The notes under the pieces: generated by a model
What the model saw: only the letters and a program-made list of their open reading frames with translations
What the model was told of the DNA's origin: nothing
The model's database searches: none
NCBI RefSeq assembly: GCF_030689645.1
Contig: NZ_JAUYFU010000027.1
Coordinates: 1-42,192 of the forward strand
From: Humidesulfovibrio sp.
Lineage (GTDB): Bacteria > Desulfobacterota > Desulfovibrionia > Desulfovibrionales > Desulfovibrionaceae
DNA length: 42,192 nucleotides
Direction: 5' to 3'
Part shown: positions 25,382-38,511 of the stretch, piece by piece
Numbering within the stretch: the stretch's first letter is position 1
Layout of the letters: the number at the start of each line of letters is the position of its first letter
Program-made: the position numbers and the translations under genes

Positions 25382-28300
25382 TCAAACCTCTTTTTGTTCC
25401 AGGGGCAGGCGCACCACGAAGGTGGTGCCCGCGCCCTGTTCGGTCTCGAAGAACAATTGGCCCTTGTGCTTCTCCATCACGATGCTGCGCGAGATGGTGA
25501 GGCCCTGGCCCGTGCCGCGCCCCACTTCCTTTGTGGTGAAGAAGGGATCGAAAATTTTTGTCTGCACCGCAGCGGGAATTCCCGTGCCCGTGTCGGCCAC
25601 GCGGATCTCGGCCCAGGGCGGGGCGAAGCGCGTGGACAGGGTGATGCGCCCCTCGCGGCTGGGGTCGGTTTTCTTGGCGTCGGCTATGGCGTGGGCGGCG
25701 TTGATGATGAGGTTCAGCACCACCTGGTTGATCTCGCCGCTCATGCACGTCACCAGCGGCAGCGCGGGGTCCAGGTTCAGGTCCAGCTCGGAGACGTACT
25801 TCCATTCGTTGCGCGACACCGTGGCCGTGCTTTTCATTGATTCGTTCAGGTCGGACGGGGCCATGATCGCCGCGCCGGGGTGGGCGAACTGCTTCACCGA
25901 GCGCACGATGGTGCTGATGCGCTCCACCCCTTCCAGGGTCTGGTTGAGGGCCCCTGGCACTTCCTCCGCCAGGTAGTTGATGTCGCGCTCCACCATGAGT
26001 TTTTCCAGGGCATCGATGTCGGCCATGCCGGGGCAGGCGGTCTTGGCTCCGTTGATGAGTTCGCGAACGGCGTGGATGATGACGAAGATGTCATCAAAAG
26101 CGCCCTTTATGAACTGGGTGTTGTTGCCCACGTATTGGGCCGGGGTGTTAATCTCGTGGGCTATGCCCGCGGCCAGCTGGCCGATGGCCTCCAGCTTCTG
26201 TGAGTGCATAAGCTGGGACTCCAAACCCTTGCGCTCGGTGGTGTCGGTGATGACGGCGAAGAAGCCTGCGGCCTTGCCTTCCTCGTCGGCGGAAATCGAA
26301 GGGGAGACCAGTGAGTAGATATGTCGCCCGGTCGCGTGCTTCCAGAGAATTTCCTCGGCCCCGGTGCGATGATGATCCGGCTGGCCCCCGGGGTGGCTGG
26401 AGATGAGCATCTCGGCCATGCGCCTCTGGCTGCCCTCTTCCACGAATTCGGTTACGGGCCGGCCTGTGATCACGGCCTTGCTTCGGCCAAGCATTTCGCA
26501 GAGGCGGTCGTTGGCGTAGGTGATGACCCCGCCGGGCTTGGCCATGAGCAGCCCCTCGTGCATGCTCTCCACCAGGGAGCGGTAGCGGGCCTCGTTCCTG
26601 CGCATGCGGGCCTCGGCGCGGATGCGGTCGCTGATGTCGGTAATCAGGCCGATGGAGCCTGCGTGCAGGCCGTCCGGCCCGATCAGGGGGCTGGCGTTGA
26701 CCAGGGTCCAGATGCGCTGGCCGTTTTTGTGCCGGAAGCGCAGCTCGTACTGGTCGGAGAGCCCCTGGCGGCGGCGCTTGATCTTCTGCAGAACCAGGCT
26801 GCGGTCCTCCGGGTCCAGGATGTCGAAGAACGGGCGGCCCAGGAGGTCTTGCAGCTCGTAGCCGAAAAGCGTGCCTGCGCGCGGGTTGGCGTAGGTGACG
26901 GCGGCCTTGGTGTCGAGCATGATGATGGCTTCTTGCGCGGTTTCCACGATGATGCGGAAGCGTTCCTCGCTTTCTCGCAGCTCGTTGATGGCTTGCATGC
27001 GCTCGGTGATGTCGCGATGGGATACCACCGCCCCGGTCATGCCCTTGGCCAGGGGCGTTGCCTGCATGACGAACCAGCGCTGCTTTCCGGTCACCGTGCC
27101 TGGATACTCGGTGCGGAAGAATGGCGCCTTGCCCGAAAGCACGGCCTGGATGCCAGCCAGGGCTGCTGCTGCGTGCGTATTGTCCTGCGCGGCGCGGCAG
27201 GCTTCGAGGTAGTTGTCGCCCAGGCGAAGTCGCACGCCGCTGCACAGGGGGGTGCTTTCCGGGCCGGTGGCCGCCCAGGATCTGTTGACCATGGTCAGCA
27301 CGCCGTGGCGGTCCAGCACGCACAGGTTGGCGGGCAGGGCGTCCAGAATGGCGCGCGACAGGCTTTCGCTGCGGCGCAGCGCCGTCGCGGCGCCTAGCCG
27401 CTCAATGACGGTGGACAAAAGCAGGGTAACCTGGCCCAGCACGCGGGAGTCGGTCAGACGCGCGGTGTCGCGCGGGGCGGCTGAGGCTATGATCAGCATG
27501 CCCAGCAGCCGATCGTTCACCAGCATGGGCACTGCGGCCAGGCAGGATATGCCAGCGCCGGACAACAATTCTTTTTCTTTGTGTCCGGCCGGGGGCATGT
27601 GGGCCGCATCGCGGATGAACACGCGCTCCCCGGCGAGGATGCGCTCCGTGAGCCAGGGCGCCTTGCGCGGGCCCAGACGGCGCAGGCTCCGGGGCAGAGC
27701 GTCGTCGGTCAGGGTGCGCGTCTGATGGGTCAGGGTGAAGGTCCGCGTCCGGGCGTGGAACAGGAACACCCCGCCCAGGCGCATGTCCAGAAAACGGCAG
27801 AGGTCGGCGAGGCATTCCTCTATGGCCAGGGCCATTTCCTTGTCGCCGGAGTTGATGAGCCGGCCAGAAATAGCTGATACCAGCGCCTCGGTCTCTAGTC
27901 TGTGCTCGATCTCGGCCTGATTTTTCTGGCGGCTGGCAGTGTTGCGGGCGCTGGTGATGAGCGCGGGCTGGCCCTGGAATTCCTGGGCCTGGCAAAGGAA
28001 CTCTGCCGGGATGGTGAAACCGTCGCGCCGCACGAGGGTGGCCTGGAACAGCTCCGGCGCGCCGGTCAGAGCATTTGCGAGGTGGCTGGCCCCGGCCTTT
28101 TGGTCGGCCTCGGCCATGTTTTCCAGCAGGTTCGCACCGGAAAGACTTTCGGTGGAGAGGTTGAGCCAGATGCCCGCGTTCTTGTTGGCGTCGAGGATGC
28201 GGCCCTGCCCGTCGTGAATGAAGATGGCGTCGGCCGCGTTGTTGAAGAACTCCCGGAACTGCCGCTCGGACTTGCTGAGCATCGCCAGGGAGATCCGCGT

Positions 28301-29566
28301 GTCGAGCACATGCTCCAATTGCCGGGCGATGGCCGAGAGCATGGCCTCGTCGTCGGGCTGGAACGGATGGGCCGCATGGGGGCTGCACAGATGCACGGCC
28401 CCGCGCTCATGGCCCAAGACGTTCAGGGGCTGCGCCAAGGAGTGGGAGCAGGTTGCGCCGGGGGCGGCGGCGCTGAAGTAGTCCTGGCCGTCGAAGCTGA
28501 TGCGCGCGGTCATGCCGTCGGGCGCGTCCCAGCACAAGGGAAGGATGTCGGCGGCGCCTTGCAGCAGTTCCGCGTCGCCGTCCTGGTTGCGGCTCAGCAC
28601 TTCGGCCAAGCGGTTCAGGCCTGCGGCTTCGCGCAGTTGGCCGCGCAGCTCCGAGGCGATGCGCGCCTGGGTTTCGGAGGCGTCGCGCAGGGCGGTGACG
28701 TCCTGGATGATAACCGCAATGCCCTCGAAAGCTCCGCTGGCGCTGAAGAGCGGGAACACGCGGGTGTCGAGGAAGGCCAGCTTCTCGCCCTCGGCCAGGC
28801 GTTCAAGCCCGATGGGTTCGGCGTGGTCGGCGGAAAGGCTGCTGCGCAGGCGTTCCAGGGCCGGGGCAACCCAGGGCAGCAGTGCCGCCAGATCTTTGGA
28901 CACGAAAGTCTCGGAGCTGGGGCAGACTTCGCCGCCATCCGGTCCCGGCTCGCCGCCGAGGGTCTCGCTCAGCCAACGGCAGGCGGTCTGGTTCAGGTCG
29001 GTGATGCGGCCTTCGGGGTCGGACAAGATCACTGCGTTGGGCAGGGCCTGGAACACTGCGGCCAGATGGCGCTTTTCGCTCAGGGTGCACTGGTTCTGCT
29101 GGCGCAGAGCAGCCTGTTCGGCGGAATTGTCGTCGGCGTTCCAATCAACGCTCACGGCGGTGGCGAGCCTGTCGAAGAATCGCGAGGCGAAGCGCAGGCT
29201 GTCGCGCCGGAGCTGGTCCGCAAGCATGCTTTGCTCCACCAGGTCTAGATAAGACTGGCGATACTGGGACATGAGCCCCAGAAACTCGCCCAAGCTTATC
29301 CCTTGTGCCTGTTGGCGCCGGGCTTCCGCAACCGCAAAGGCTTCCAGGAGGCTTTCGCCAAAGCGATCGTCCGGTCCCATCTCCACTGCGGCAAGGCCGC
29401 GGCCAAGGGCTTCCTGCAGCGCTTCTGAAAGTCCGCGGATGAAGAGGCGGCAGGCCTCTTCGCTGATGGACGCATGCGCGGTGTATCCACGCTCTGTGGC
29501 GTAGGCCAGCGCGCGGCCTGCAAGCCAGTCCTCGCTCTGGCGCAGGAGTAGTGCGAATTCATGCAT
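25382..29566 (-). CDS. Large soluble multi-PAS/GAF sensor histidine kinase
   Basis: 1394 residues, ATG 29566 with AAGGAG five bases upstream. No membrane segments, so probably cytoplasmic. The N-terminus (about 5-140) is helical and may be an RsbRD_N-like sensor domain. Then come PAS (about 165-290), GAF (about 315-425), PAS (about 430-555), GAF (about 560-725) and three PAS domains (about 735-855, 860-980 and 985-1110; VVSHRDITER and LITDISDR mark two PAC ends). The kinase core has His1137 (AAGIAHEINTPAQYV), the N box NQVVLNLIINAAHAI, and the G boxes VADTGTGIP and GRGTGQGLTISRSIV. No receiver domain is fused. The three receivers encoded directly downstream are the obvious partners. Confidence 0.93.
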   Translation of the reverse strand: MHEFALLLRQSEDWLAGRALAYATERGYTAHASISEEACRLFIRGLSEALQEALGRGLAAVEMGPDDRFGESLLEAFAVAEARRQQAQGISLGEFLGLMSQYRQSYLDLVEQSMLADQLRRDSLRFASRFFDRLATAVSVDWNADDNSAEQAALRQQNQCTLSEKRHLAAVFQALPNAVILSDPEGRITDLNQTACRWLSETLGGEPGPDGGEVCPSSETFVSKDLAALLPWVAPALERLRSSLSADHAEPIGLERLAEGEKLAFLDTRVFPLFSASGAFEGIAVIIQDVTALRDASETQARIASELRGQLREAAGLNRLAEVLSRNQDGDAELLQGAADILPLCWDAPDGMTARISFDGQDYFSAAAPGATCSHSLAQPLNVLGHERGAVHLCSPHAAHPFQPDDEAMLSAIARQLEHVLDTRISLAMLSKSERQFREFFNNAADAIFIHDGQGRILDANKNAGIWLNLSTESLSGANLLENMAEADQKAGASHLANALTGAPELFQATLVRRDGFTIPAEFLCQAQEFQGQPALITSARNTASRQKNQAEIEHRLETEALVSAISGRLINSGDKEMALAIEECLADLCRFLDMRLGGVFLFHARTRTFTLTHQTRTLTDDALPRSLRRLGPRKAPWLTERILAGERVFIRDAAHMPPAGHKEKELLSGAGISCLAAVPMLVNDRLLGMLIIASAAPRDTARLTDSRVLGQVTLLLSTVIERLGAATALRRSESLSRAILDALPANLCVLDRHGVLTMVNRSWAATGPESTPLCSGVRLRLGDNYLEACRAAQDNTHAAAALAGIQAVLSGKAPFFRTEYPGTVTGKQRWFVMQATPLAKGMTGAVVSHRDITERMQAINELRESEERFRIIVETAQEAIIMLDTKAAVTYANPRAGTLFGYELQDLLGRPFFDILDPEDRSLVLQKIKRRRQGLSDQYELRFRHKNGQRIWTLVNASPLIGPDGLHAGSIGLITDISDRIRAEARMRRNEARYRSLVESMHEGLLMAKPGGVITYANDRLCEMLGRSKAVITGRPVTEFVEEGSQRRMAEMLISSHPGGQPDHHRTGAEEILWKHATGRHIYSLVSPSISADEEGKAAGFFAVITDTTERKGLESQLMHSQKLEAIGQLAAGIAHEINTPAQYVGNNTQFIKGAFDDIFVIIHAVRELINGAKTACPGMADIDALEKLMVERDINYLAEEVPGALNQTLEGVERISTIVRSVKQFAHPGAAIMAPSDLNESMKSTATVSRNEWKYVSELDLNLDPALPLVTCMSGEINQVVLNLIINAAHAIADAKKTDPSREGRITLSTRFAPPWAEIRVADTGTGIPAAVQTKIFDPFFTTKEVGRGTGQGLTISRSIVMEKHKGQLFFETEQGAGTTFVVRLPLEQKEV

Positions 29567-29598
29567 GAAGTCTCCTTGGACAGCCGAGCCCCAAAGCT

Positions 29599-29609
29599 AT
29601 TGGTCCAAT
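29599..29609. repeat. Palindrome ATTGG-T-CCAAT between kinase and ars operon
   Basis: A perfect five-base inverted repeat lies 33 bases before the kinase start in the divergent region 29567-29756. It could be a regulator site for the kinase operon. Short palindromes arise by chance, so this is weak. The rest of this gap holds the ars promoter and operator. Confidence 0.3.
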
Positions 29610-29702
29610 GATAATTGCATACCCCATGTCGCACATTTTCCCCTCCGGGGCAACGTGTTGGCGTGTGGATCCAAACGCTTCGACAAAGTTGCTCGCGCGT
29701 CA

Positions 29703-29730
29703 TTGACACCTGCGACACATAGCCATATTG
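29703..29730 (+). promoter_or_regulatory. ars operon promoter
   Basis: A perfect TTGACA (29703-29708) is followed after 16 bases by TATTGT (29725-29730), about 27 bases before the arsR start at 29757. It is the best promoter-like site in front of the operon and overlaps the proposed ArsR operator. Confidence 0.6.
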
Positions 29731-29740
29731 TAATGTCTCG
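29713..29740. promoter_or_regulatory. Proposed ArsR operator (imperfect inverted repeat)
   Basis: CGACACAT (29713-29720) and ATGTCTCG (29733-29740) are inverted repeats matching at seven of eight bases, separated by 12 bases that contain the -10 box. ArsR/SmtB repressors bind such dyads across the promoter and leave when arsenite binds. Assignment is by position and symmetry only. Confidence 0.5.
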
Positions 29741-29756
29741 AAGCGAGGAGGACGGC

Positions 29757-30119
29757 ATGGACGAATTGCTGCGGGTCATGAAGGCCCTTTCCGACCCTGG
29801 CCGGGTCACCATACTGAAGCTCTTGGGAAGCCGGGAGCTCTGCGCCTGCGAGATCATCCGGGCGCTCAAGCTGGCGCAGCCCACCATATCCCGGCACATG
29901 AAGATCCTGTCTGACGCTGGTCTGGTGACCGGGCGCAAGGTCGGCTCCTGGGTGCATTACCGCGTGGTCGAGAACCCGGCCTCGCCCTATGCGCGCACCC
30001 TGCTGGCCGCTCTCTCCGGCTGGCTGGAGGACGATCCTGCGCTTCTGGCCCTGCGCGAGAACATGAACAAGGCCGCGCCTTGCGGCAAGCCTGTCATCGA
30101 AAAGGAGCTGCGGCCATGA
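29757..30119 (+). CDS. arsR: ArsR-family arsenite-responsive repressor
   Basis: 120 residues from ATG 29757, chosen for GAGGAGG five bases upstream; another ATG eight codons earlier (29733) lies inside the operator. A winged helix-turn-helix of the ArsR/SmtB family: ALSDPGRVTILKLL, ELCACEIIRALKLAQPTISRHMKIL, GLVTGRKVGSWVHYRV. The metalloid site is Cys29-x-Cys31 in the recognition-side helix, as in ELCVCDL of Escherichia coli ArsR; the third Cys of that site is absent (Arg/Ala nearby), and two-Cys ArsR sites are known. The stop overlaps arsC by four bases (ATGA). Confidence 0.93.
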   Translation: MDELLRVMKALSDPGRVTILKLLGSRELCACEIIRALKLAQPTISRHMKILSDAGLVTGRKVGSWVHYRVVENPASPYARTLLAALSGWLEDDPALLALRENMNKAAPCGKPVIEKELRP

Positions 30120-30565
30120 GCAGGACCAGGGTGCTTTTCGTTTGCGGACAGAACTCCGCCCGCAGCCAGATGGCCGAGGCCCTGCTTGACCACCTGGCGG
30201 GCGACCGGTACGAGGCCCACAGCGCAGGCATCGAGCCGGCGCCCATCAATCCGCTGGCCGTGGCCGTCATGGCCGAGCGCGGCATCGATATTTCCGGCAA
30301 GCGCACCAAGCTGGTGGCCGAGGCCGTGGCCGAACTGGCCGGGCGCGGGGAACAGTTCGAGGTGGTCGTCACCGTGTGCAGCAAGGCCGCTGGCCTGTGC
30401 CCCTTTGTGCCTGGCGTGGCCGTCACCGAGCGCTGGAGCTTCGATGACCCCGGCACGGTTGCGGGAACGCCGCAGGAGCAGTTGGCCAAGGTGCGCGCCG
30501 TGCGCGATGACATTGAAACCACGCTGCGCGCCTGGGTTGCCCATAGGGCGCAGAGGGACGGATAA
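30116..30565 (+). CDS. arsC: Thioredoxin-coupled arsenate reductase
   Basis: 149 residues with the low-molecular-weight phosphatase loop Cys10-GQNSA-Arg16, a second pair Cys88/Cys95 with the seven-residue spacing of Cys82/Cys89 in the pI258 enzyme, and the Asp in FDDPG. It reduces arsenate to arsenite through a Cys10 to Cys88 to Cys95 disulfide cascade that thioredoxin resets. This matters here because the operon brings its own thioredoxin-like genes. AAGGAG precedes the start, and its stop overlaps the permease start by one base (TAATG). Confidence 0.95.
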   Translation: MSRTRVLFVCGQNSARSQMAEALLDHLAGDRYEAHSAGIEPAPINPLAVAVMAERGIDISGKRTKLVAEAVAELAGRGEQFEVVVTVCSKAAGLCPFVPGVAVTERWSFDDPGTVAGTPQEQLAKVRAVRDDIETTLRAWVAHRAQRDG

Positions 30566-31752
30566 TGAAGGAATTGAAGCCGCTGGGCTCCCTTGATGCT
30601 GACAAGCCCTGCTCCTGCCAGCCCAAGACCGTGCGAGAGGCCCGCGAGATGCTGCGCGCCCAGCGCGAGAAGAATCGCCAAGCCCAGGCCGAAGCCCGCG
30701 CCCAGCGCGTGGCCGAGGTGCTTGCCCCGCCTTCCAGCCTGCCGGGCAAGCTGGGCCTCACCTTTGCCGCGCTCGTCATCTGGTGGAACCTGTACCAGAT
30801 GCTGCCGGGCATCGCCCGTTTCGCCACGCAGAACCTCCTGGGCCTGGATCTGACCAGCCACCTGGGCGCCAGCGTGGAGTTCTTTCTTTACGACACGCCC
30901 AAGGTGCTGCTGCTGCTGGCCTTGGTGGTGTTCGGCGTGGGCGTGCTGCGCAGCTTCTTTACCCCGGAGCGCACCCGCCGCCTGCTGGCGGGCAAAAGCG
31001 AGGCTTTCGGCAACGTGCTGGCCGCGCTGCTCGGCATTGTCACGCCCTTCTGCTCGTGTTCCGCCGTGCCGCTGTTCATCGGATTCCTGGGGGCCGGGGT
31101 GCCCCTTGGCGTCACCTTCTCCTTTCTTATCTCCGCTCCCATGGTCAACGAGATTGCCGTGGTGCTGCTTTACAGCCTGCTGGGCTGGAAGGTGGCGGCC
31201 ATCTACATGGGCACAGGGCTGGCCGTGGCCATGGTCTGCGGCTTTGTCATCGGGCGGCTCAAGCTTGAGCGCCACGTTGAGGACTGGGTGCTGGCCGTGC
31301 GGGCCGGCGGCGGAGAGACCGACCAGCCGGAGCTGACCTGGGCCGAGCGCTTGGACGCCGGGGCCGTTGCCGCCCGCGACATTCTGGGCAAGGTCTGGCC
31401 CTGGGTGGTGGCGGGCATCGCCGTGGGCGCAGGCATCCATGGCTATGTGCCCGAGGGTTTCCTGGCGTCCATCATGGGCCGCGAGGCCTGGTGGAGCGTG
31501 CCTGCTGCGGTGGTCATCGGCATTCCCATGTACTCCAACGCGGCGGGCATCGTGCCCGTGGTCCACGCGCTGCTGGAAAAGGGCGCGGCGCTGGGCACTG
31601 TGCTGGCCTTCATGATGGCCGTCATCGCGCTTTCGCTGCCGGAGATGGTCATATTGCGCAAGGTGCTCAAGCCCAAGCTGCTGGCGGTCTTCGTGGGCGT
31701 GGTCGGCCTGGGCATTTTGCTGGTGGGTTTTTTGTTCAACGCAATTATGTAG
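30565..31752 (+). CDS. ArsP/DUF318-type permease
   Basis: 395 residues. A 50-residue charged cytoplasmic N-terminus holds Cys16-Ser-Cys18 and an Arg/Gln/Ala-rich helix. About eight to ten membrane helices follow, with TPFCSCSAVPLFIGFLGAG and AGIVPVVHALLEKGAALGT, the two conserved halves of the DUF318 permease family. ArsP of Campylobacter, a member, exports trivalent organoarsenicals. The CxC motif in a membrane helix is conserved in the family and could bind trivalent arsenic. Whether the substrate here is arsenite, an organoarsenical or another thiol-reactive species is not decided by sequence. Confidence 0.85.
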   Translation: MKELKPLGSLDADKPCSCQPKTVREAREMLRAQREKNRQAQAEARAQRVAEVLAPPSSLPGKLGLTFAALVIWWNLYQMLPGIARFATQNLLGLDLTSHLGASVEFFLYDTPKVLLLLALVVFGVGVLRSFFTPERTRRLLAGKSEAFGNVLAALLGIVTPFCSCSAVPLFIGFLGAGVPLGVTFSFLISAPMVNEIAVVLLYSLLGWKVAAIYMGTGLAVAMVCGFVIGRLKLERHVEDWVLAVRAGGGETDQPELTWAERLDAGAVAARDILGKVWPWVVAGIAVGAGIHGYVPEGFLASIMGREAWWSVPAAVVIGIPMYSNAAGIVPVVHALLEKGAALGTVLAFMMAVIALSLPEMVILRKVLKPKLLAVFVGVVGLGILLVGFLFNAIM

Positions 31753-31764
31753 GCGGTTCTTGCC

Positions 31765-32166
31765 ATGGGGCGCATGCGGCTCGATATTCTCTGGCAGAGG
31801 GTGCTTAAGGGGGCGGAAACGTGCGAACGCTGCGGCGAAACGGGCGAGAGCGTGCGCCGGGCCGTCCTGGCGCTGCGTGAGGCGCTGGCCCCGCGGGGCA
31901 TCGAAGTGGTCCTGATGGAAAAGGCCCTGCCGCTTTTTGCCGTGACGGAGAGCAATCGTGTGTTTATCGGCGGCCAGCCTTTGGAAGACCTGCTGGGCGC
32001 CGAGGTGGGCGAGAGTCACTGCCAGTCCTGCTGCGACTTGCTGGGCGCGCAGACCGATTGCCGCACCCTGCGCCTGGAGGGCCGGGAGTATGAGGCCCTG
32101 TCCGAGGAACTCATCGTGCGCGCCGGGCTGCTGGCGGCCAACAGGCTGGAGGCGGCAGCTCAGTAA
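31765..32166 (+). CDS. Cys-rich DUF2703-like protein
   Basis: 133 residues, soluble, starting 12 bases after the permease. Six cysteines: Cys20 and Cys23 (ETCERCGETG), Cys86, Cys89 and Cys90 (SHCQSCC), and Cys99 (TDCRTL). The order strand (MRLDILWQRV), CxxC, helix (VRRAVLALREAL), strand (IEVVLMEKALP), then NRVFIGGQPLEDLLG resembles a thioredoxin-fold core, and the family is DUF2703 as far as I recall. A role as arsenite-binding chaperone or redox partner, as ArsD has for ArsA, is plausible but inferred. Confidence 0.8.
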   Translation: MGRMRLDILWQRVLKGAETCERCGETGESVRRAVLALREALAPRGIEVVLMEKALPLFAVTESNRVFIGGQPLEDLLGAEVGESHCQSCCDLLGAQTDCRTLRLEGREYEALSEELIVRAGLLAANRLEAAAQ

Positions 32167-32213
32167 TTGGATTTCGGTTCAGCAATCTGGAGTCAGCACA
32201 ACACGCAACCCCC

Positions 32214-32227
32214 GCCCCGCGCGGGGC
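32214..32227. repeat. 14-bp palindrome in the DUF2703-TPR gap
   Basis: GCCCCGCGCGGGGC is a perfect palindrome in the 78-base gap. In RNA it could form a short hairpin about 17 bases before the TPR start. There is no T-run, so it is not a terminator. It might adjust relative expression within the operon. Confidence 0.35.
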
Positions 32228-32244
32228 AAACGGAGAATAAGCGC

Positions 32245-32856
32245 ATGGCCGAATCGGCGCGCACTTTCAGCAAAGGCGAGTTCATTGGCGGTATAGTGGC
32301 GGCGCTGGCCGTTGGATTTTTCCTGGGAAGCATCTCCATGGAGCTGCGCCAGCCCGCGCAGATGCCCATGCAGACCATGAGCCAGCCTGCTGCCCAGATG
32401 CCCGGACAGAAAGGGGACGGGCACGACCATACTGCGGAGCTGGCCCACATAGGCGAGCTGGAGATAGCCACAGCGCAGAAGCCCGGCGACCAGGCCCAGT
32501 GGATCGAGCTGGGCAACCTGTATTTCGACACCCACCAGGCCCGGAAGTCCATCGCCGCGTATGAGAAGGCCATCGCCCTCGGTCCGGTGAGCGCCGACGT
32601 GTGGACCGATCTGGGCATCATGCACCGCGAGGCTGGCGAGCCCAAGAAGGCGCTGGAGATTTTCGACACCGCTCTCAAGCTGGACGCGCGCCACGAGAAT
32701 GCCTTGTATAATAAGGGTGTAGTGCTGTTGCACGACGTGCAGGACCGCACCGCCGCCGTCGCCACCTGGGAAAAGCTGTTGCAGGTGAATCCCGCAGCCA
32801 AGAATCCCGAGGGCCGGGCTCTGCGCGGCATGGTCGACGAGCTCAAAAAAGGCTAG
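32245..32856 (+). CDS. Membrane-anchored TPR protein
   Basis: 203 residues from ATG 32245 with CGGAG upstream. A single membrane helix (about 12-32, GEFIGGIVAALAVGFFLGS) is an uncleaved anchor. A Met/Gln-rich and then His/Asp stretch (MPMQTMSQPAAQMPGQK, GHDHTAE) follows and could bind metal. Residues about 70-195 hold about three tetratricopeptide repeats (WIELGNLYFDTHQARKSIAAY, VWTDLGIMHREAGEPKKALEI, ALYNKGVVLLHDVQDRTAAV). The domain faces the periplasm by the positive-inside rule. TPRs bind proteins; the partner here could be one of the thioredoxins or the permease. Confidence 0.85.
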   Translation: MAESARTFSKGEFIGGIVAALAVGFFLGSISMELRQPAQMPMQTMSQPAAQMPGQKGDGHDHTAELAHIGELEIATAQKPGDQAQWIELGNLYFDTHQARKSIAAYEKAIALGPVSADVWTDLGIMHREAGEPKKALEIFDTALKLDARHENALYNKGVVLLHDVQDRTAAVATWEKLLQVNPAAKNPEGRALRGMVDELKKG

Positions 32857-32887
32857 CGCACAAAGCGGCAAAACACGGAGAACGAAC

Positions 32888-33121
32888 ATGGAAATCAAGG
32901 TTCTTGGGCCGGGGTGCCCCAAGTGTCACGAGGCGGAGAAGCTGGTGCGCGAGGCTGTGGCCGAGGCCGGGGTGCCGGCCCAGGTGACCAAGGTTTCGGA
33001 CTTCAAGGAAATGGCCATGCTGGGCGTTTTCGCCACCCCTGCCGTGGTTGTGGACGGCGTGGTGAAATGCTCAGGCAAGGTTCCGTCGAAAAAGGAGATT
33101 CTGGCGTGGCTCGGAAAATGA
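32888..33121 (+). CDS. Small thioredoxin/glutaredoxin-like protein (CPKC)
   Basis: 77 residues, no signal peptide, so cytoplasmic. Active site Cys10-Pro-Lys-Cys13 (GPGCPKC), a cis-Pro stretch at FATPAVVVDG and a compact thioredoxin fold, as in the archaeal MTH895-type redox proteins. It has an extra Cys in DGVVKCSGK. It probably exchanges electrons with ArsC or with the cytoplasmic face of the CcdA-like protein. The stop overlaps the next gene by four bases (ATGA). Confidence 0.9.
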   Translation: MEIKVLGPGCPKCHEAEKLVREAVAEAGVPAQVTKVSDFKEMAMLGVFATPAVVVDGVVKCSGKVPSKKEILAWLGK

Positions 33122-33486
33122 CGCGTTGTCTCCTCCTGGCCTTGGCGTTGTGTCTGGCGGGCACGCTGGCCTTTGCCGCACCGGCTCAGGCTCCGCAGGT
33201 GCCGGTGAAAGGCGTGGTGACCATGTTGGACCTGGGCGCGAAGAGCTGTATTCCCTGCAAGATGATGGCGCCCATTCTGGTGGAGCTTGAGAAGGACTAC
33301 CGGGGCAAGGCCGCTGTGGTGTTCATCGACGTGCGCGAGGACAACGATGCGGCCAGAAAGTTCGGCATCCGGGCCATTCCCACGCAGATATTCTTTAACA
33401 GGGCAGGCCAGGAGGTTTCGCGCCACGAGGGCTTCATGGACAAGAAGACCGCCTCCGACACGCTGAACAAGCTGCTGGCGAAGTAG
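33118..33486 (+). CDS. Exported thioredoxin (CIPC)
   Basis: 122 residues from ATG 33118, overlapping the previous gene; an earlier start in this frame would read through it and is not real. AAAGGAG is 20 or so bases upstream. A Sec signal covers about 1-21 (LLLALALCLAGTLAFAA). The mature protein is a full thioredoxin fold with Cys44-Ile-Pro-Cys47 in place of CGPC and cis-Pro in RAIPTQIFF. The site faces the periplasm, where it would be reduced by the CcdA-like carrier encoded next. Confidence 0.92.
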   Translation: MTRCLLLALALCLAGTLAFAAPAQAPQVPVKGVVTMLDLGAKSCIPCKMMAPILVELEKDYRGKAAVVFIDVREDNDAARKFGIRAIPTQIFFNRAGQEVSRHEGFMDKKTASDTLNKLLAK

Positions 33487-33498
33487 CAGGGAAGCTCC

Positions 33499-34218
33499 AT
33501 GCCCGGCCTCCTTGAACAGTTCCTCCTGGCCATCAACGCCTGGATGACCGGAGATTCCCTCGCGGCTTACGCGGGCAGCTTCCTCTGGGGGCTGGTGAGC
33601 GTGCTGTTCAGCCCCTGCCATCTGGCCAGCATCCCGCTCATGGTGGGCTATGTGGCCGGGCAGGGCAGGCTGGTGGAAGGGCGCGAGGCCGTGCGCTACG
33701 CCGTGGTCTTCACCCTGGGGCTTTTCACCACCATCGCCCTGGTGGGCGTGGCCTGCGCGCTCCTGGGCCGCATGCTGGGCGACGTGGGCTCCTACTGGAC
33801 CATGGCCGTGGGAGCGGTGCTTGTGTTCGTGGCGCTGGACATGCTGGGCGTGGCCGCGTGCAGGCTTTCCGGCGGGCTCATGTCAAAGCTCAAGGTGCAC
33901 GGGGTTTCCGGCGCGCTCATCATGGGCCTGGGCTACGGGCTTTTGTCCGGCTCCTGCACCTTCGGCTTCCTGGCCCCGCTCTTGGCCGTCATCACCGTGC
34001 AGGAGCAGGTGCTTACCGGCGTGGGGCTCATTTTGACCTTTGCCCTGGGGCACTGTCTGCCCATTGTCATTGCAGGCAGCTCTGCCTCCCTGGCCCGGCG
34101 CATGCTGGAGGGCTTCTCCGGCGGCGGGACGTGGGTGCGGCGGATGGCCGGGGTTCTTGTCGGTTTGCTCGGTGTGTATTTTATCGCCAGGCCGTTTTTG
34201 GGCAGCGGTCTGGGTTGA
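33499..34218 (+). CDS. CcdA/DsbD-like trans-membrane electron carrier
   Basis: 239 residues with six membrane helices. The paired redox cysteines are Cys40 (SVLFSPCHLASIP) in the first helix and Cys153 (LLSGSCTFGFLAPLL) in the fourth, both followed by the proline signatures of CcdA. The family passes electrons from cytoplasmic thioredoxin to periplasmic thiol proteins. It lies 12 bases after the exported thioredoxin gene, so the two are very probably partners. Cytochrome c biogenesis is an alternative use, but no Ccm/Ccs genes are nearby. Confidence 0.9.
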   Translation: MPGLLEQFLLAINAWMTGDSLAAYAGSFLWGLVSVLFSPCHLASIPLMVGYVAGQGRLVEGREAVRYAVVFTLGLFTTIALVGVACALLGRMLGDVGSYWTMAVGAVLVFVALDMLGVAACRLSGGLMSKLKVHGVSGALIMGLGYGLLSGSCTFGFLAPLLAVITVQEQVLTGVGLILTFALGHCLPIVIAGSSASLARRMLEGFSGGGTWVRRMAGVLVGLLGVYFIARPFLGSGLG

Positions 34219-34263
34219 TCAGACTGGGACGAAGCCCCGCGACCATCAACCTGGGAGGTCCAC

Positions 34264-34785
34264 ATGAAGTTTTTCGCCGCCGCCTGCCTTCTTGGCCTGC
34301 TTGCTGTGGCCGGACCTGCCGTCGCGGCAGAACCCATAAGCCTCGACACCTACGTGCGCGAATTCGATTACGAGACGCGCAAGCTCATGAAGTGCTCGGG
34401 CAAGGAGCTTCTGGCCCTGCTCATCAAAAAAGAGGCCGTGCTGGTGGACATCCGCTTCCCGGAGGAGCAGCAGGCCTGGGGCCCGAGTTTCGCGCTCAAG
34501 ATTCCCCTGAACGAGCTGCCCGCGAGGTTGAACGAGCTGCCCAAGGACAAAATAATCGTCACGGCCTGCCCGCACATCGACCGCTCGAACATCGCCATGG
34601 TTTACCTCACCACCAAGGGCTATAACGCGTGCTATCTCGTGGGCGGGCTGGTGGGCCTGGCTGAACTGCTGCGCGGCGACGAGGCGCGCGACTTCATGGC
34701 TGCCCTGAACCAGAAGCCCGATGGCAAGGCAGGCGGCAAGTCCACCGGCAGGGAAACCGGCAAGGTCCAGTCCTCGGGCAAGTAG
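34264..34785 (+). CDS. Exported rhodanese-like protein
   Basis: 173 residues. Signal peptide about 1-22 (ACLLGLLAVAGPAVAAE). Rhodanese domain about 40-145: LVDIRFPEEQQAWG, then the active-site loop with Cys102 (TACPHIDRS), then YLVGGLVGLAELL. The loop is ACPHIDRS rather than the usual CxxGxRS/T, keeping Cys and Arg-Ser. The tail (about 150-173) is Lys/Gly/Ser-rich and disordered. Rhodaneses move sulfane sulfur; in the periplasm of a sulfidogen it might handle thiols or polysulfide, possibly to thiolate arsenic. GGGAGG lies just upstream of the start. Confidence 0.88.
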   Translation: MKFFAAACLLGLLAVAGPAVAAEPISLDTYVREFDYETRKLMKCSGKELLALLIKKEAVLVDIRFPEEQQAWGPSFALKIPLNELPARLNELPKDKIIVTACPHIDRSNIAMVYLTTKGYNACYLVGGLVGLAELLRGDEARDFMAALNQKPDGKAGGKSTGRETGKVQSSGK

Positions 34786-34832
34786 CCCACGTGTTCCTCT
34801 CCCGCATGTGCTGACCAGTAAGGAGGCTCACC

Positions 34833-35924
34833 ATGTCTGAATCCGTCACAGGTAAGCTGTCGTTTCTGGATCGCTGGCTGACTCTGTGGATTTTCGCCGC
34901 CATGTTCGCGGGCATCGGCGCAGGGTACCTGTTTCCCGGGCTCAAGCAGGCCGTGGGCGGCATGCAGAGCGGCACCACAAACCTGCCCATCGCGGCGGGC
35001 CTCATCCTGATGATGTACCCGCCCCTGGCCAAGGTTCGCTACGAGCTCATGGGGCAGGTTTTTAAGAACGTGCGCGTGCTGGCGCTGTCGCTGGTGCAGA
35101 ACTGGGTCATCGGCCCGGTGTTGATGTTCGGGCTGGCCGTGACCTTTCTTTCCGGCCACCACGCCTACATGACCGGCCTGATCCTCATCGGGCTGGCGCG
35201 CTGCATCGCCATGGTCATTGTGTGGAACGACCTGGCCGGGGGCGACCGCGAGTACTGTGCGGGTCTTGTGGCCTTCAATTCCGTGTTCCAGGTCCTGTTT
35301 TTCCCGTTGTACGCTTGGATGTTCCTCACCGTGTTGCCTGGCTGGCTGGGGCTTGAAGGCGCGGCGGTGAACATCAGCATGGGCCAGATAGCCGAGAGCG
35401 TGTTCATCTATCTGGGCATCCCGTTTTTGGCGGGTCTGGCCTCGCGCATCATCGGGCTCAAGGTCATGGGCCGCGAGTGGTACGACACGGTGTTCGCGCC
35501 CAAGATCGGCCCCATCACCCTGGTGGCCCTGCTGTTCACCATTCTGGTCATGTTCTCCCTCAAGGGCGAGGTCATGGTGGCCCTGCCCTTTGACGTTCTG
35601 CGCGTGGCCGCGCCCATGCTCATCTACTTCCTGATCATGTTTCTGGCCTCCTTCTGGCTGTCCATGAAGGCCGGGGCCAATTACGCCCAGTCCGCCACCT
35701 TGAGCTTCACCGCAGCAAGCAACAACTTCGAGTTGGCCATTGCGGTTGCTGTGGCAGTCTTCGGGCTGGATTCCGGCCAGGCCTTTGCCGCGGTCATCGG
35801 GCCGCTGGTGGAGGTGCCGGTGCTCATCGGGCTGGTGAATGTGGCCCTCTGGCTCAAGAAGCGCTGGTTCCCCAACGACCCTGGCACGCTGTCCAGCGTG
35901 TGCCACGTGGACTGCAAGCCGTAA
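34833..35924 (+). CDS. arsB: ACR3 arsenite efflux permease
   Basis: 363 residues, ten membrane helices, typical ACR3 length. The conserved Cys124 sits in [19 protein letters not shown], and the conserved Glu near 339 in [13 protein letters not shown]. Other signatures are [15 protein letters not shown] and [19 protein letters not shown]. It exports arsenite using the membrane potential. AAGGAGG is seven bases before the ATG. In this operon it is separated from arsRC by the redox genes, so the first export gene after arsC is the ArsP-like permease. Confidence 0.96.
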
Positions 35925-35941
35925 GGAGTTTTTGTCACCGC

Positions 35942-37249
35942 ATGAACTTGTTTCCGCAGACCTTGTTCATAGAGACCACCACCCGCTGCAACCTCACCTG
36001 CCCAATGTGCGCGCGCTGCGCGCCGGGTTGGCGGGGCGGGTTCGGCGACATGAATCTGGCCGCCTTCGAGCGTCTGGACGATTCCTTCCGCCATGCCCGT
36101 GCCGTGATACTGAACGGCATGGGCGAGCCGCTTCTGCACCCGGACTTGCCGCGCATGGTCCGCCATGTGGCGGAGCGGCTGCCTGCGGGAGGCTGGTGCG
36201 GCTTGCAGACCAACGGCCTGCTGCTCGACGAGCGTCTGGCTTTGCTGCTGGCGGAGGCCGGGCTGGACGTGGCCTGCATCTCCCACGACGGCGAGGGCGC
36301 GGCCCTGGGCCACGGCGGATCCGGCCCGGATGACGCTCTTTCCCGCGCTACGGCCCTGTTGCGGGCGGCATCGGCCAAAGCAGGCAGGCCCATGCGCCTG
36401 GGCCTGGAAACCGTGCTCATGCGGGGCAACATCGCGCAGCTCCCCGATCTGGTGCGGAGCGCGGCCCGGCTCAAGCTCGACTTCCTGCTGGCGACGCACC
36501 TGCTGCCCATGGACGCCGCCACCGAGTCCGAGGCGCTGTTCCTGCCGTGCAGCGCCGCCTCCCTGCGCATCTTCGCCCAGCACCAGGCCGAGGCCCGCGC
36601 CCGGGGGCTCGACCTCTCCGGCGTGCCCCGCGCCGCGGTTATGGTCCACCGCACCCCGGTGGAGCGCGAGCTGATGGACCTGCTGCGCCGCATGCATGAG
36701 CGCGCCCATGCCGAAGGCGTGTGGCTCAACGTGGGGCGCCTGGCCCAGGCCGATCCCGCGCGCCTGGAAGAGCTCGCTGCGGTGTTCGATTCGGCGCGCC
36801 GGCTGGCCAAGGCTGCGGGGCTTGATCTGCACCTGCCCGCCCTCACCGCTCCGGAGCGCCCGAAAGACCGGCGGTGCGGCTTCGTGGATCAGGACGCCGC
36901 GTTCATCGACTGGCGCGGCAACGTCTCTCCCTGCCATTTTCTTTGGCACGGCTATGCCTGCCGCGTGCTGGGCGACGCGAAAACCGTCGAGCCTCGGCGC
37001 TTTGGCAATGTCCTCGAAGCATCGCTGACAGACATCTGGCGCGGCCAAGAGTTTTCGCGCTTCCGCGAAACGGTTCGCAACGGCGAGTACCCGGCCTGCG
37101 GCGATTGTGGCTCGGGCTTGTGCAGCGACGCCTCCGGGGTCTACGGGGCTTTTGAGCTTGACTGCCTGGGCGTGAGCGTGCCCTGCGGGCATTGCCCCTG
37201 GGCCGTGGGGCAGCTGGCCTGCCTGGGCAGCGCTCCGGGCTTGGGCTGA
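35942..37249 (+). CDS. Radical SAM/SPASM-like enzyme, last gene of the ars operon
   Basis: 435 residues from ATG 35942; AAGGAG is 13 bases away, which is long, but no better in-frame start is visible. The iron-sulfur motif is CxxxCxxC at Cys16, Cys20, Cys23 (TRCNLTCPMC) with an extra Cys26. The C-terminal part is Cys-rich (CGFVDQDAAFIDWRGNVSPC, NGEYPACGDCGSGLC, VPCGHCPWAVG), as in SPASM/twitch domains that hold auxiliary clusters. It recalls a radical SAM/SPASM subfamily annotated in Geobacter and relatives as putative metalloenzyme maturation; that match is from memory. It does not look like ArsS. It starts 17 bases after ACR3, which implies co-transcription. Substrate unknown. Confidence 0.85.
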   Translation: MNLFPQTLFIETTTRCNLTCPMCARCAPGWRGGFGDMNLAAFERLDDSFRHARAVILNGMGEPLLHPDLPRMVRHVAERLPAGGWCGLQTNGLLLDERLALLLAEAGLDVACISHDGEGAALGHGGSGPDDALSRATALLRAASAKAGRPMRLGLETVLMRGNIAQLPDLVRSAARLKLDFLLATHLLPMDAATESEALFLPCSAASLRIFAQHQAEARARGLDLSGVPRAAVMVHRTPVERELMDLLRRMHERAHAEGVWLNVGRLAQADPARLEELAAVFDSARRLAKAAGLDLHLPALTAPERPKDRRCGFVDQDAAFIDWRGNVSPCHFLWHGYACRVLGDAKTVEPRRFGNVLEASLTDIWRGQEFSRFRETVRNGEYPACGDCGSGLCSDASGVYGAFELDCLGVSVPCGHCPWAVGQLACLGSAPGLG

Positions 37250-37340
37250 CTGGTGCGGAGCGGGGAGCCAGGGGGCGTTGTCCCGGCGTTTGTTCCGCGC
37301 GCGCTTGACTTTTCGAACGGATGATGATGCCGGAAGACCC

Positions 37341-38363
37341 ATGCCAAACGTTGAAGCGCAAAACTGTTCCGTGCGGGGGCGGCTGGCCCCCAGCCCAACC
37401 GGCCTCATGCACCTGGGCAACGCCTGGTCGTTTCTGCTGGCCTGGCTGGCGGCGCGGGCCGCTGGCGGGCAGGTGGTGCTGCGCCTGGAGGACATCGACC
37501 CGGAGCGCTCGCGCCGCGAATTCGCGGACGACATCCTGCGCGACCTGCGCTGGCTGGGCCTGGACTGGGACGAAGGCCCGGACGCGCCCGGTCCGGTTGG
37601 CCCCTATGAGCAGGGCCTGCGGCTGGAGCGCTACGCGGCCGCCCTCGACGAGCTGACCAGCGCCGGGCGCATCTACCCCTGCTTCTGCACCCGCAAGGAG
37701 CTGCGCCAGTTGGCCTCCGCTCCCCACGCGCCACAGGGCAAAGCCGCCGGGCTGGCCGGAGACGGCTCGCCCGCCTACCCCGGCGCCTGCCGGGAACTGT
37801 CGGTCCAGGATTGCGCCGAGCTGCTGCGCCAAGGCCGCAGGCCCGCCCTGCGTTTGCGCTGCGACGACACAGCCATCGGCTTTGACGATCTTGTGGCCGG
37901 GCAGCAGCACATGACCTTGGCCGAGTGCGGCGGCGACTTCGCCGTGCGCCGCTCGGATGGGGTGTTCGCCTACCAGCTGGCCGTGGTGCTGGACGACATC
38001 GCCATGGGCATTACCCAGGTGGTGCGTGGCGATGACATCCTCACCAGCACGCCGCGCCAGATTTTCCTGTACCGTCTGCTGGGCGCGCAGCCGCCGCAGT
38101 ACGCGCATCTGCCTCTGGTGCTCGACCACGAGGGCGAGCGCCTGGCCAAGCGGCACCAGTCCCTGACCCTTGCGGAATTGCGCGAGGCTGGCGTGCCGGC
38201 CCAGGCCATCACCGGCTACCTGGCCTGGCGCGCCGGGCTGCTGGATTCGCCGCGGCCCTGCGTGCCGCAGGACCTCGTGAACGGTTTTGCGTTCGCTTCA
38301 ATTCCCGCTGCTGCAGTGCGGCTTCCTGGGGACATTGCCCGCGTGCTCCGCGAACTGGGCTGA
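37341..38363 (+). CDS. gluQ: Glutamyl-Q tRNA(Asp) synthetase
   Basis: 340 residues from ATG 37341 with GGAAG five bases upstream; longer readings add an unlikely Arg-rich extension. It is a shortened glutamyl-tRNA synthetase with only the catalytic half. The HIGH motif is HLGN (24-27, APSPTGLMHLGNAW), and the KMSKS equivalent is LAKRHQS (268-274). The zinc motif CxC...YxxxC is complete (Cys114, Cys116, Tyr146, Cys150), as in GluQ-RS. The enzyme glutamylates queuosine at the wobble base of tRNA-Asp instead of charging tRNA-Glu. It is 91 bases after the radical SAM gene and ends at a strong terminator. Confidence 0.95.
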   Translation: MPNVEAQNCSVRGRLAPSPTGLMHLGNAWSFLLAWLAARAAGGQVVLRLEDIDPERSRREFADDILRDLRWLGLDWDEGPDAPGPVGPYEQGLRLERYAAALDELTSAGRIYPCFCTRKELRQLASAPHAPQGKAAGLAGDGSPAYPGACRELSVQDCAELLRQGRRPALRLRCDDTAIGFDDLVAGQQHMTLAECGGDFAVRRSDGVFAYQLAVVLDDIAMGITQVVRGDDILTSTPRQIFLYRLLGAQPPQYAHLPLVLDHEGERLAKRHQSLTLAELREAGVPAQAITGYLAWRAGLLDSPRPCVPQDLVNGFAFASIPAAAVRLPGDIARVLRELG

Positions 38364-38473
38364 GCGGTGTGATATCCGGCATAAGGCCAAAGGAGCAGCT
38401 TTCTACAGGCTGGCCTGAAAGGGGCAGGCGGAAATCTCACGGCAAGGCGGGGGCATCCTGGGAATCAGGCCCC

Positions 38474-38511
38474 AAAAAAGCCCGAAGGCAATGGTCACCT
38501 TCGGGCTTTTT
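38474..38511. terminator. Bidirectional rho-independent terminator
   Basis: A perfect nine-base stem (GCCCGAAGG, 38480-38488, with CCTTCGGGC, 38498-38506) encloses a nine-base loop and is flanked by six A on the left and five T on the right. It ends gluQ transcripts on the plus strand and the outer-membrane gene on the minus strand. The preceding stretch 38364-38473 holds nothing else I recognise. Confidence 0.95.

Follow-up and report, generated by a model that had tools for sequence, protein, structure and literature searches.

A Humidesulfovibrio arsenic operon joins a thiol relay that travels with ArsP and ArsE to a radical SAM/SPASM enzyme repeatedly found beside arsenic genes

Positions 1 to 42,192 of contig NZ_JAUYFU010000027.1 of Humidesulfovibrio sp. 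(a genome of 3.19 Mb in 111 contigs), the stretch of DNA analysed here and called the window, carry an eleven-gene arsenic operon at 29757-37249. In it, the classical genes for ArsR, ArsC and ACR3 are combined with those for the permease ArsP, a thiol relay (the mini-thioredoxin ArsE, a predicted exported thioredoxin and the membrane electron carrier CcdA), a DUF2703 protein, a TPR protein, a predicted exported rhodanese and a radical S-adenosylmethionine (SAM)/SPASM enzyme of family TIGR04311. Comparison with related genomes found that the relay travels with ArsP and ArsE rather than with ArsC, and that TIGR04311-type genes have repeatedly come to stand beside arsenic genes. The operon is real and is a variant of an already known ars operon type; what is newer in the finding is that the radical SAM family has been linked to ars genes repeatedly. 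On balance, we lean towards one ArsR-controlled operon that merges a classical ars module with an ArsP-ArsE-exported thioredoxin-CcdA module, the radical SAM enzyme adding an extra activity.

The thiol relay travels with ArsP and ArsE

The association of the relay was evaluated in 247 genomes from the order, among which a CcdA relative was found in 107 and an ACR3 relative in 124. For the distances to ACR3, 12 CcdA matches that were weaker than ~1e-50 or fragmentary were dropped, as were fragmentary or distant ACR3 matches (two in G051, one each in G159, G047, G101, G109, G172 and G180, and the second in G096), five distant (~34%) ACR3 matches being retained and all 78 radical SAM matches being used. 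CcdA lay at most 10 kb from ACR3 in 54 of the 107 strong places; random placement in 4-Mb genomes would give ~0.5. Next, 98 of these 107 places were read (9 were not fetched), of which 81 had at least 4.5 kb on both sides and 17 were set aside for their short flanks. Within 4.5 kb of CcdA, the 81 loci held an exported thioredoxin in 80 cases, ArsE in 73, ArsP in 64 and ArsR in 61, followed by a DGC-domain protein (PF08859) in 36, ACR3 in 32, ArsC in 23, rhodanese in 10, TPR in 10, radical SAM in nine and DUF2703 in six. Since 48 of the 81 loci have neither ACR3 nor ArsC and mostly keep ArsP (36/48) and ArsE (45/48), the conserved unit is ArsR-(DGC)-ArsP-ArsE-(DGC)-exported thioredoxin-CcdA, with ArsC an occasional neighbour. 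The C(S/T)C motif was present in all 65 ArsPs counted at relay loci, and the ArsR beside the relay has a C-x-C motif in 54 of 61 loci, 32 without and 22 with ACR3 or ArsC nearby.

CcdA, thioredoxin and redox-active disulfide protein 2 in ars operons were published in 2010 (PMC2963123), and the same three redox genes lie inside the window operon. The available portions of that report tie them to ArsC, 7 of the 8 operons described having arsC, whereas the larger sample here ties them to ArsE and ArsP. A reading made earlier from the window's sequence only had taken the relay for the reductant of a thioredoxin-dependent ArsC; on the counts above, this gives way to the preferable reading of the relay as a component of an ArsP export module. 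As the same portions of the 2010 report raise doubt over the location of the relay relative to the cytosolic ArsC, the association with ArsP offers a way out of it. The co-occurrence of the redox genes with ars genes in related genomes, a check that had been set beforehand, was borne out by the census as well as by six loci of the genus and one of another family, described below.

The DGC-domain protein, one representative of which was scanned, often belongs to the ArsP-ArsE relay module (among others at L010-L017, L019, L042-L046, L048, L052, L053, L057 and L058), and we know of no role for it there. In addition, 10 loci (L011, L013, L014, L015, L018, L042, L043, L047, L055 and L057) have, close to their ars or relay genes, a TtrA-like molybdopterin enzyme, in most cases accompanied by a 4Fe-4S subunit and a membrane subunit of NrfD type. 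Its representative from L014 scores 461 bits to TtrA against a cut-off of 1750 and 98 to ArrA against 1600; the enzyme is an unclassified reductase that may be linked to arsenic.

The radical SAM/SPASM gene is a repeated neighbour of arsenic genes

The last gene of the operon (35942-37249, + strand) encodes a full-length member of TIGR04311 (rSAM_Geo_metal; model positions 1-423 of 423, 432.5 versus a cut-off of 400), a family named 'putative metalloenzyme maturase' by NCBIfam, with PF04055 (44.6) and SPASM PF13186 (53.0) matches. The same cut-off was exceeded by 10 of 10 diverse relatives. A CxxxCxxC motif lies at residues 16-23 of 435, and this motif and nine C-terminal cysteines are invariant in 18 aligned members. 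The closest models after TIGR04311 are the tungsten-cofactor maturase TIGR04317 (196.6, not reaching its cut-off of 380), PqqE and NirJ.

Within the order, the gene was found in 76 of the 247 genomes at 78 places, 13 of which lay at most 3 kb from ACR3 against ~0.14 expected. These 13 fall in four of the eight same-genus genomes, G036, seven places in genus g6 and G024; in G138 the distance is 4.5 kb. TIGR04311-type genes adjoin ars genes in Desulfobacterota and Chloroflexi records, and in the named collection 16 of 80 radical SAM loci hold homologues of ACR3, ArsC, ArsP or ArsE in the stretch, four of them in genomes that are also in the order set. When counting was restricted to the 47 named loci with at least 3 kb on both sides, one of these four genes was found within 3 kb in 11 and none in 36. 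The arrangements comprise ACR3-rSAM (rSAM being the radical SAM gene; the window, L065, L074, L084, L105, L122 and L141), ArsC-rSAM (L066, L103, L120 and L123) and ArsP-ArsE-rSAM (L096, L114 and a broken second copy in L118). On a tree built by a quick method from 111 members, 27 of them ars-linked, the label of ars linkage needs 12 changes (gains or losses), no fewer than 10 being required by the starred branches; this tree left out L063, L064, L066 and L084 (genomes already present), L001 (the window copy) and the second, broken L118 copy. The 20 loci L002-L021 had been picked partly for ars linkage, and the tree gives numbers of changes, not rates. The label is more clustered than in shuffles (12 versus 24.5 changes on average), and ars linkage is therefore also inherited. 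Among the matches listed from open-licence literature, no link between TIGR04311 and arsenic was found, nor any radical SAM enzyme in ars operons beyond ArsL and ArsS.

Away from arsenic genes, the neighbours are varied. In 20 order loci chosen for their distance from ACR3, they differ by lineage, L025 nonetheless having ArsC directly upstream. Outside the order, members without ars neighbours adjoin AOR, often with a ThiS/MoaD-like gene, or a solute-binding protein; Pfam matches of such neighbours are given for the representatives L133 and L079. AOR stands beside the gene in 6 of the 47 named loci with full flanks. Loci with this pairing are L070, L092, L109, L115, L121 and L133, from Nitrospirae, Chloroflexi and Acidobacteria, several with a ThiS/MoaD-like gene between. 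The family may have a general role that was borrowed by arsenic operons, or a role in arsenic handling in some settings only.

Several further arrangements were observed around these genes. The radical SAM gene directly follows ArsC at L018 (13231-14532, gap 156 nucleotides (nt)) and L025 (8529-9830, gap 73 nt), and both fall on the tree in lineages apart from the window's. In Geobacter, a glycine-cleavage-H-like lipoyl protein comes directly after the TIGR04311-type gene (L118, 15566-16096; L123, 9373-9867; PF01597 match for L118 only), and a lipoate ligase lies at 4740-5849 of L118, ~2 kb before the first radical SAM copy. By eye, an extra F-type ATPase operon stands beside the ars-radical SAM clusters of L074 (1-250), L105 (9450-12770) and L123 (14585-17213).

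Layout and recurrence of the operon

All eleven open reading frames (ORFs) lie on the + strand, with neighbours overlapping by 1 or 4 nt or spaced by 12-78 nt as calculated from coordinates. The sequence-only reading had described eleven same-strand genes in one operon-like block; every ORF and family assignment holds, and the co-directional, tight packing and a promoter-like site before arsR agree with a single block. This predicted sigma-70 promoter, TTGACA-17-TATTGT (29703-29731, + strand; 10 of 12 consensus positions matched, a consensus match only), ends 25 nt 5′ of arsR and scores highest among the four promoter-like sites of 29500-38500, where shuffled sequence gives 0.8.

The Pfam scores given below, like those of the radical SAM enzyme above, all exceed the Pfam cut-offs. 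The first gene (29757-30119) encodes an ArsR/SmtB repressor (PF01022, 61.8 bits; NF033788, 87.2 versus 55) in which an arsenic-type CxC motif, ELCACE, is read directly from the sequence; we take this motif to bind As(III). It is followed by a low-molecular-weight (LMW)-phosphatase-type ArsC (30116-30565; PF01451, 59.2), whose best NCBIfam model is the thioredoxin-type TIGR02691 at 110.6, under its cut-off of 174.3. The ArsP_1 (DUF318) permease (30565-31752; PF03773, 249.7 bits) carries TPFCSC and thereby combines the PF03773 domain with the C(S/T)C motif, which ArsPs surveyed in the available text of PMC4435449 all share and where ArsP is reported as an organoarsenical transporter. A DUF2703 protein with cysteine pairs (31765-32166; PF10865, 115.1 bits) and a TPR protein with a putative N-terminal membrane anchor, as judged by eye (32245-32856; TPR_2, 47.7), precede the relay. 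The relay itself comprises the ArsE/MTH895-family mini-thioredoxin, which has CPKC and lacks an export signal (32888-33121; PF13192, 98.6; TIGR00412, 98.3 versus 62), the predicted exported thioredoxin with CIPC (33118-33486; PF00085, 52.6) and the CcdA/DsbD-type carrier (33499-34218; PF02683, 59.2). A predicted exported single-domain rhodanese with a CPHIDR loop, the latter noted by eye (34264-34785; PF00581, 33.8), and the arsenite efflux transporter ACR3 (34833-35924; PF01758, 196.3; TIGR00832, 434.9 versus 282.8) then lead to the radical SAM gene. That the thioredoxin and the rhodanese begin like exported proteins, as had been proposed, is supported by their N-termini as read by eye. ACR3, ArsE (TIGR00412) and the LMW-type ArsC each have one match in the genome, and besides CcdA a second DsbD-type match lies in a 674-aa open frame on a different contig. 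Downstream, gluQ (37341-38363) starts 91 nt past the radical SAM gene. Divergent from the operon, a 1394-aa ORF (25382-29566, − strand) resembles, by eye, a multi-PAS sensor histidine kinase.

The order ArsR-ArsC-ArsP-DUF2703-TPR-ArsE-Trx-CcdA-ACR3 (Trx, the thioredoxin) was found in six further genus loci (L002, L003, L004, L006, L007 and L008), and most of the operon also occurs in another family of the phylum (L228, ArsR-ArsP-DUF2703-ArsE-Trx-CcdA-ArsC-ArsC-ACR3). Because of this recurrence, the arrangement is not due to chance. In the window and in each of the six genus loci, which all have ACR3 and CcdA, DUF2703 and TPR separate ArsP from ArsE; other TPR matches near CcdA are probably generic repeats. 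Across 297 genomes of the phylum, DUF2703 occurred at 26 places in 24 genomes. Twenty of these places were read more widely, and relay or ars genes accompany DUF2703 in the stretch at eight (L228-L234 and, in a looser sense, L243; L230 reads ArsR-ArsP-ArsE-rhodanese-Trx-DUF2703-ArsC), and no such genes were found at the other 12. A partial DUF2703 match (41%, residues 6-73) at position 9425 of the Geobacter locus L118 follows the first radical SAM copy, giving ArsR-rSAM-DUF2703.

Comparison with known systems

The operon had been put forward as undescribed, which holds in part: passages of earlier papers already place the redox trio in ars operons (PMC2963123, above) and DUF2703 beside ars genes, in Rhodococcus, in 2019 (PMC6514093). 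A term search of PMC2963123, made for rhodanese and not for DUF2703 or radical SAM, gave no occurrence. According to the accessible part of PMC9144182, which cites the ArsEFG system for roxarsone and nitarsone resistance (2019), resistance to organic arsenicals comes from ArsE and ArsF, with ArsG as efflux transporter. The likeness of the window mini-thioredoxin to this system rests on the NCBIfam name of TIGR00412, MTH895/ArsE family, and ArsEFG may lack the exported thioredoxin and CcdA. The Tso/SAO selenoprotein systems (TsoB, TsoR and SaoE, as presented in parts of PMC13188914) share an ArsR-type regulator, rhodanese, DsbD and thioredoxin parts and an ArsP-like exporter, but the window proteins score far under the TsoB, SaoE and TsoR cut-offs, are encoded by separate genes and have cysteines as active-site residues. 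Identity with TsoB was rejected for the CcdA and exported-thioredoxin proteins, P0008 and P0007 (52.3 and 15.7 versus 805), and for P0009, the rhodanese, which has no TsoB match; identity of ArsP with SaoE was likewise rejected (130.3 versus the NF040736 cut-off of 325).

As for the radical SAM enzyme, it exceeds the cut-off of TIGR04311 and not that of TIGR04317, and unlike those maturases is linked to ars genes and not to an AOR-type enzyme. The arsQML arsinothricin cluster likewise pairs a radical SAM enzyme with a permease in an ars operon (PMC8552651, in part), but there ArsQ is a GntP-related permease, and the eleven genes of the window are without a methyltransferase. Identity with ArsL was discarded, its CX3CX2C lying at residues 194-201 of 428 in the text available from that source versus 16-23 of 435 here. 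The ArsS family model was absent from the best 25 of 37 NCBIfam matches of the window proteins.

Weighing of alternatives

Several observations weigh against the merged operon and its ArsP-centred relay. ArsP is missing within 4.5 kb in 17 of the 81 relay loci. The ArsP_1 family is broad, its closest relations in NCBIfam being SaoE and a copper/zinc exporter (SO_0444, to which the window ArsP scores 105.4 against 300), and therefore the module alone may handle a non-arsenic substrate. The nearest named relative (L062) reads ArsR-ArsC-ArsP-DUF2703-TPR-ArsE-Trx-ACR3-rSAM-gluQ, and neither CcdA nor rhodanese was found in its fetched stretch; the rhodanese, between CcdA and ACR3, recurs only in L003 and was not found in the other five of the six further full genus loci, so that both genes are dispensable at the operon site within the lineage. 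The radical SAM gene, too, was not found in four of the eight same-genus genomes. Absences of this kind, with CcdA, rhodanese and radical SAM genes each missing from some close relatives, would suit an ordinary ars operon with passenger genes brought together in metal-resistance islands and lacking a joint function; the tight same-strand spacing, the order shared across families and the repeated linkage make this improbable. We give as little credence to the rhodanese, thioredoxin and CcdA stripping sulfur from, or adding it to, periplasmic thioarsenates. The habitat is sulfidic, and rhodanese, DsbD and thioredoxin parts are fused in TsoB (NF045694), to successive parts of which P0008 and P0007 align, but rhodanese accompanies only 10 of the 81 relay loci and so cannot provide the core function. 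That the relay is a local reductant of ArsC, as also suggested in the accessible portions of PMC2963123, agrees with the thioredoxin-like class and sole copy of the LMW ArsC; the reading is nonetheless unlikely, given how seldom ArsC accompanies the relay. Moreover, ArsC is a cytosolic protein, whereas two of the relay parts sit in the membrane or are exported, as those portions also note.

Two explanations concern the radical SAM enzyme. It is quite conceivable, if still doubtful, that it is a maturase of a tungsten/molybdenum-type metalloenzyme, kept in ars operons as a reserve or repair copy on account of a target that is sensitive to arsenite. The name of TIGR04311, the score to TIGR04317 and the AOR neighbours with their ThiS/MoaD-like genes point this way, and FolE in an ars operon is a precedent for a protected target (PMC9144182, in part). 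AFOR occurs in 209 of the 247 order genomes and, by eye, in all 76 with the radical SAM gene, but is so common that this co-occurrence carries little weight; no AOR lies among the window operon genes, and none was recognised at the ars-linked loci, where not every ORF was searched. Rather less probable is that the enzyme acts on arsenic, making a C-As bond as ArsS and ArsL do, and that ArsP exports the product. This is consistent with loci that join ArsR, ArsP, ArsE and the radical SAM gene and have no ACR3 or ArsC in the fetched stretch (Desulfobulbus L096 and the second copy in Geobacter L118, which was read in two pieces, L118 also having an ArsA-like gene by eye), with ArsP-ArsE-rSAM at the contig end of Chloroflexi L114, and with L011, in which a Methyltransf_31 protein that resembles ArsM by eye is encoded 0.66 kb upstream of the radical SAM gene. 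The radical SAM enzyme, methyltransferase and permease of arsQML and the organoarsenical transport reported for ArsP (PMC8552651 and PMC4435449, both in part) are precedents. Against it stand the position of the motif compared with ArsL, the closeness to maturase, PqqE and NirJ models, and the 36 of 47 full-flank named loci without the four ars genes, six of the 47 having AOR. Speculatively, the TIGR04311 enzyme of ars operons might build an organoarsenical or modify an arsenical ligand for export by ArsP-ArsE-thioredoxin-CcdA. Radical SAM enzymes would then have three arsenic chemistries, those of ArsS and ArsL and this one, the last having been acquired more than once by Desulfobacterota and their relatives; we hold this reading to be unlikely.

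Proposed working of the merged operon

From the gene order and its recurrence we infer how the merged operon could work. De-repression by ArsR would switch on the whole block. In the classical module, ArsC would reduce arsenate and ACR3 would pump out the arsenite. In the other, ArsP may export a thiol-reactive arsenical, probably trivalent, organic or thiol-bound, for which ArsE, paired with CcdA or with ArsP, would be the dedicated cytosolic thiol partner, passing on either electrons or the arsenical itself. Electrons would cross the membrane via CcdA to the exported thioredoxin, which could keep exit-side periplasmic thiols reduced, including those of the exported rhodanese where present. 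DUF2703 and the TPR protein would be accessories, and the radical SAM enzyme an added activity that evolution has repeatedly linked to such operons.

To our knowledge, it is still an open question which enzymes of anoxic soil and groundwater make or handle organoarsenicals. For the relay in arsenic operons, the present finding makes ArsP and organic or thiol-bound arsenicals relevant, beyond ArsC and arsenate. The TIGR04311 radical SAM/SPASM family emerges as a repeated neighbour of arsenic genes and as the part of the operon that most deserves experiment; if the enzyme does act on arsenic, it would represent a new natural arsenic chemistry.

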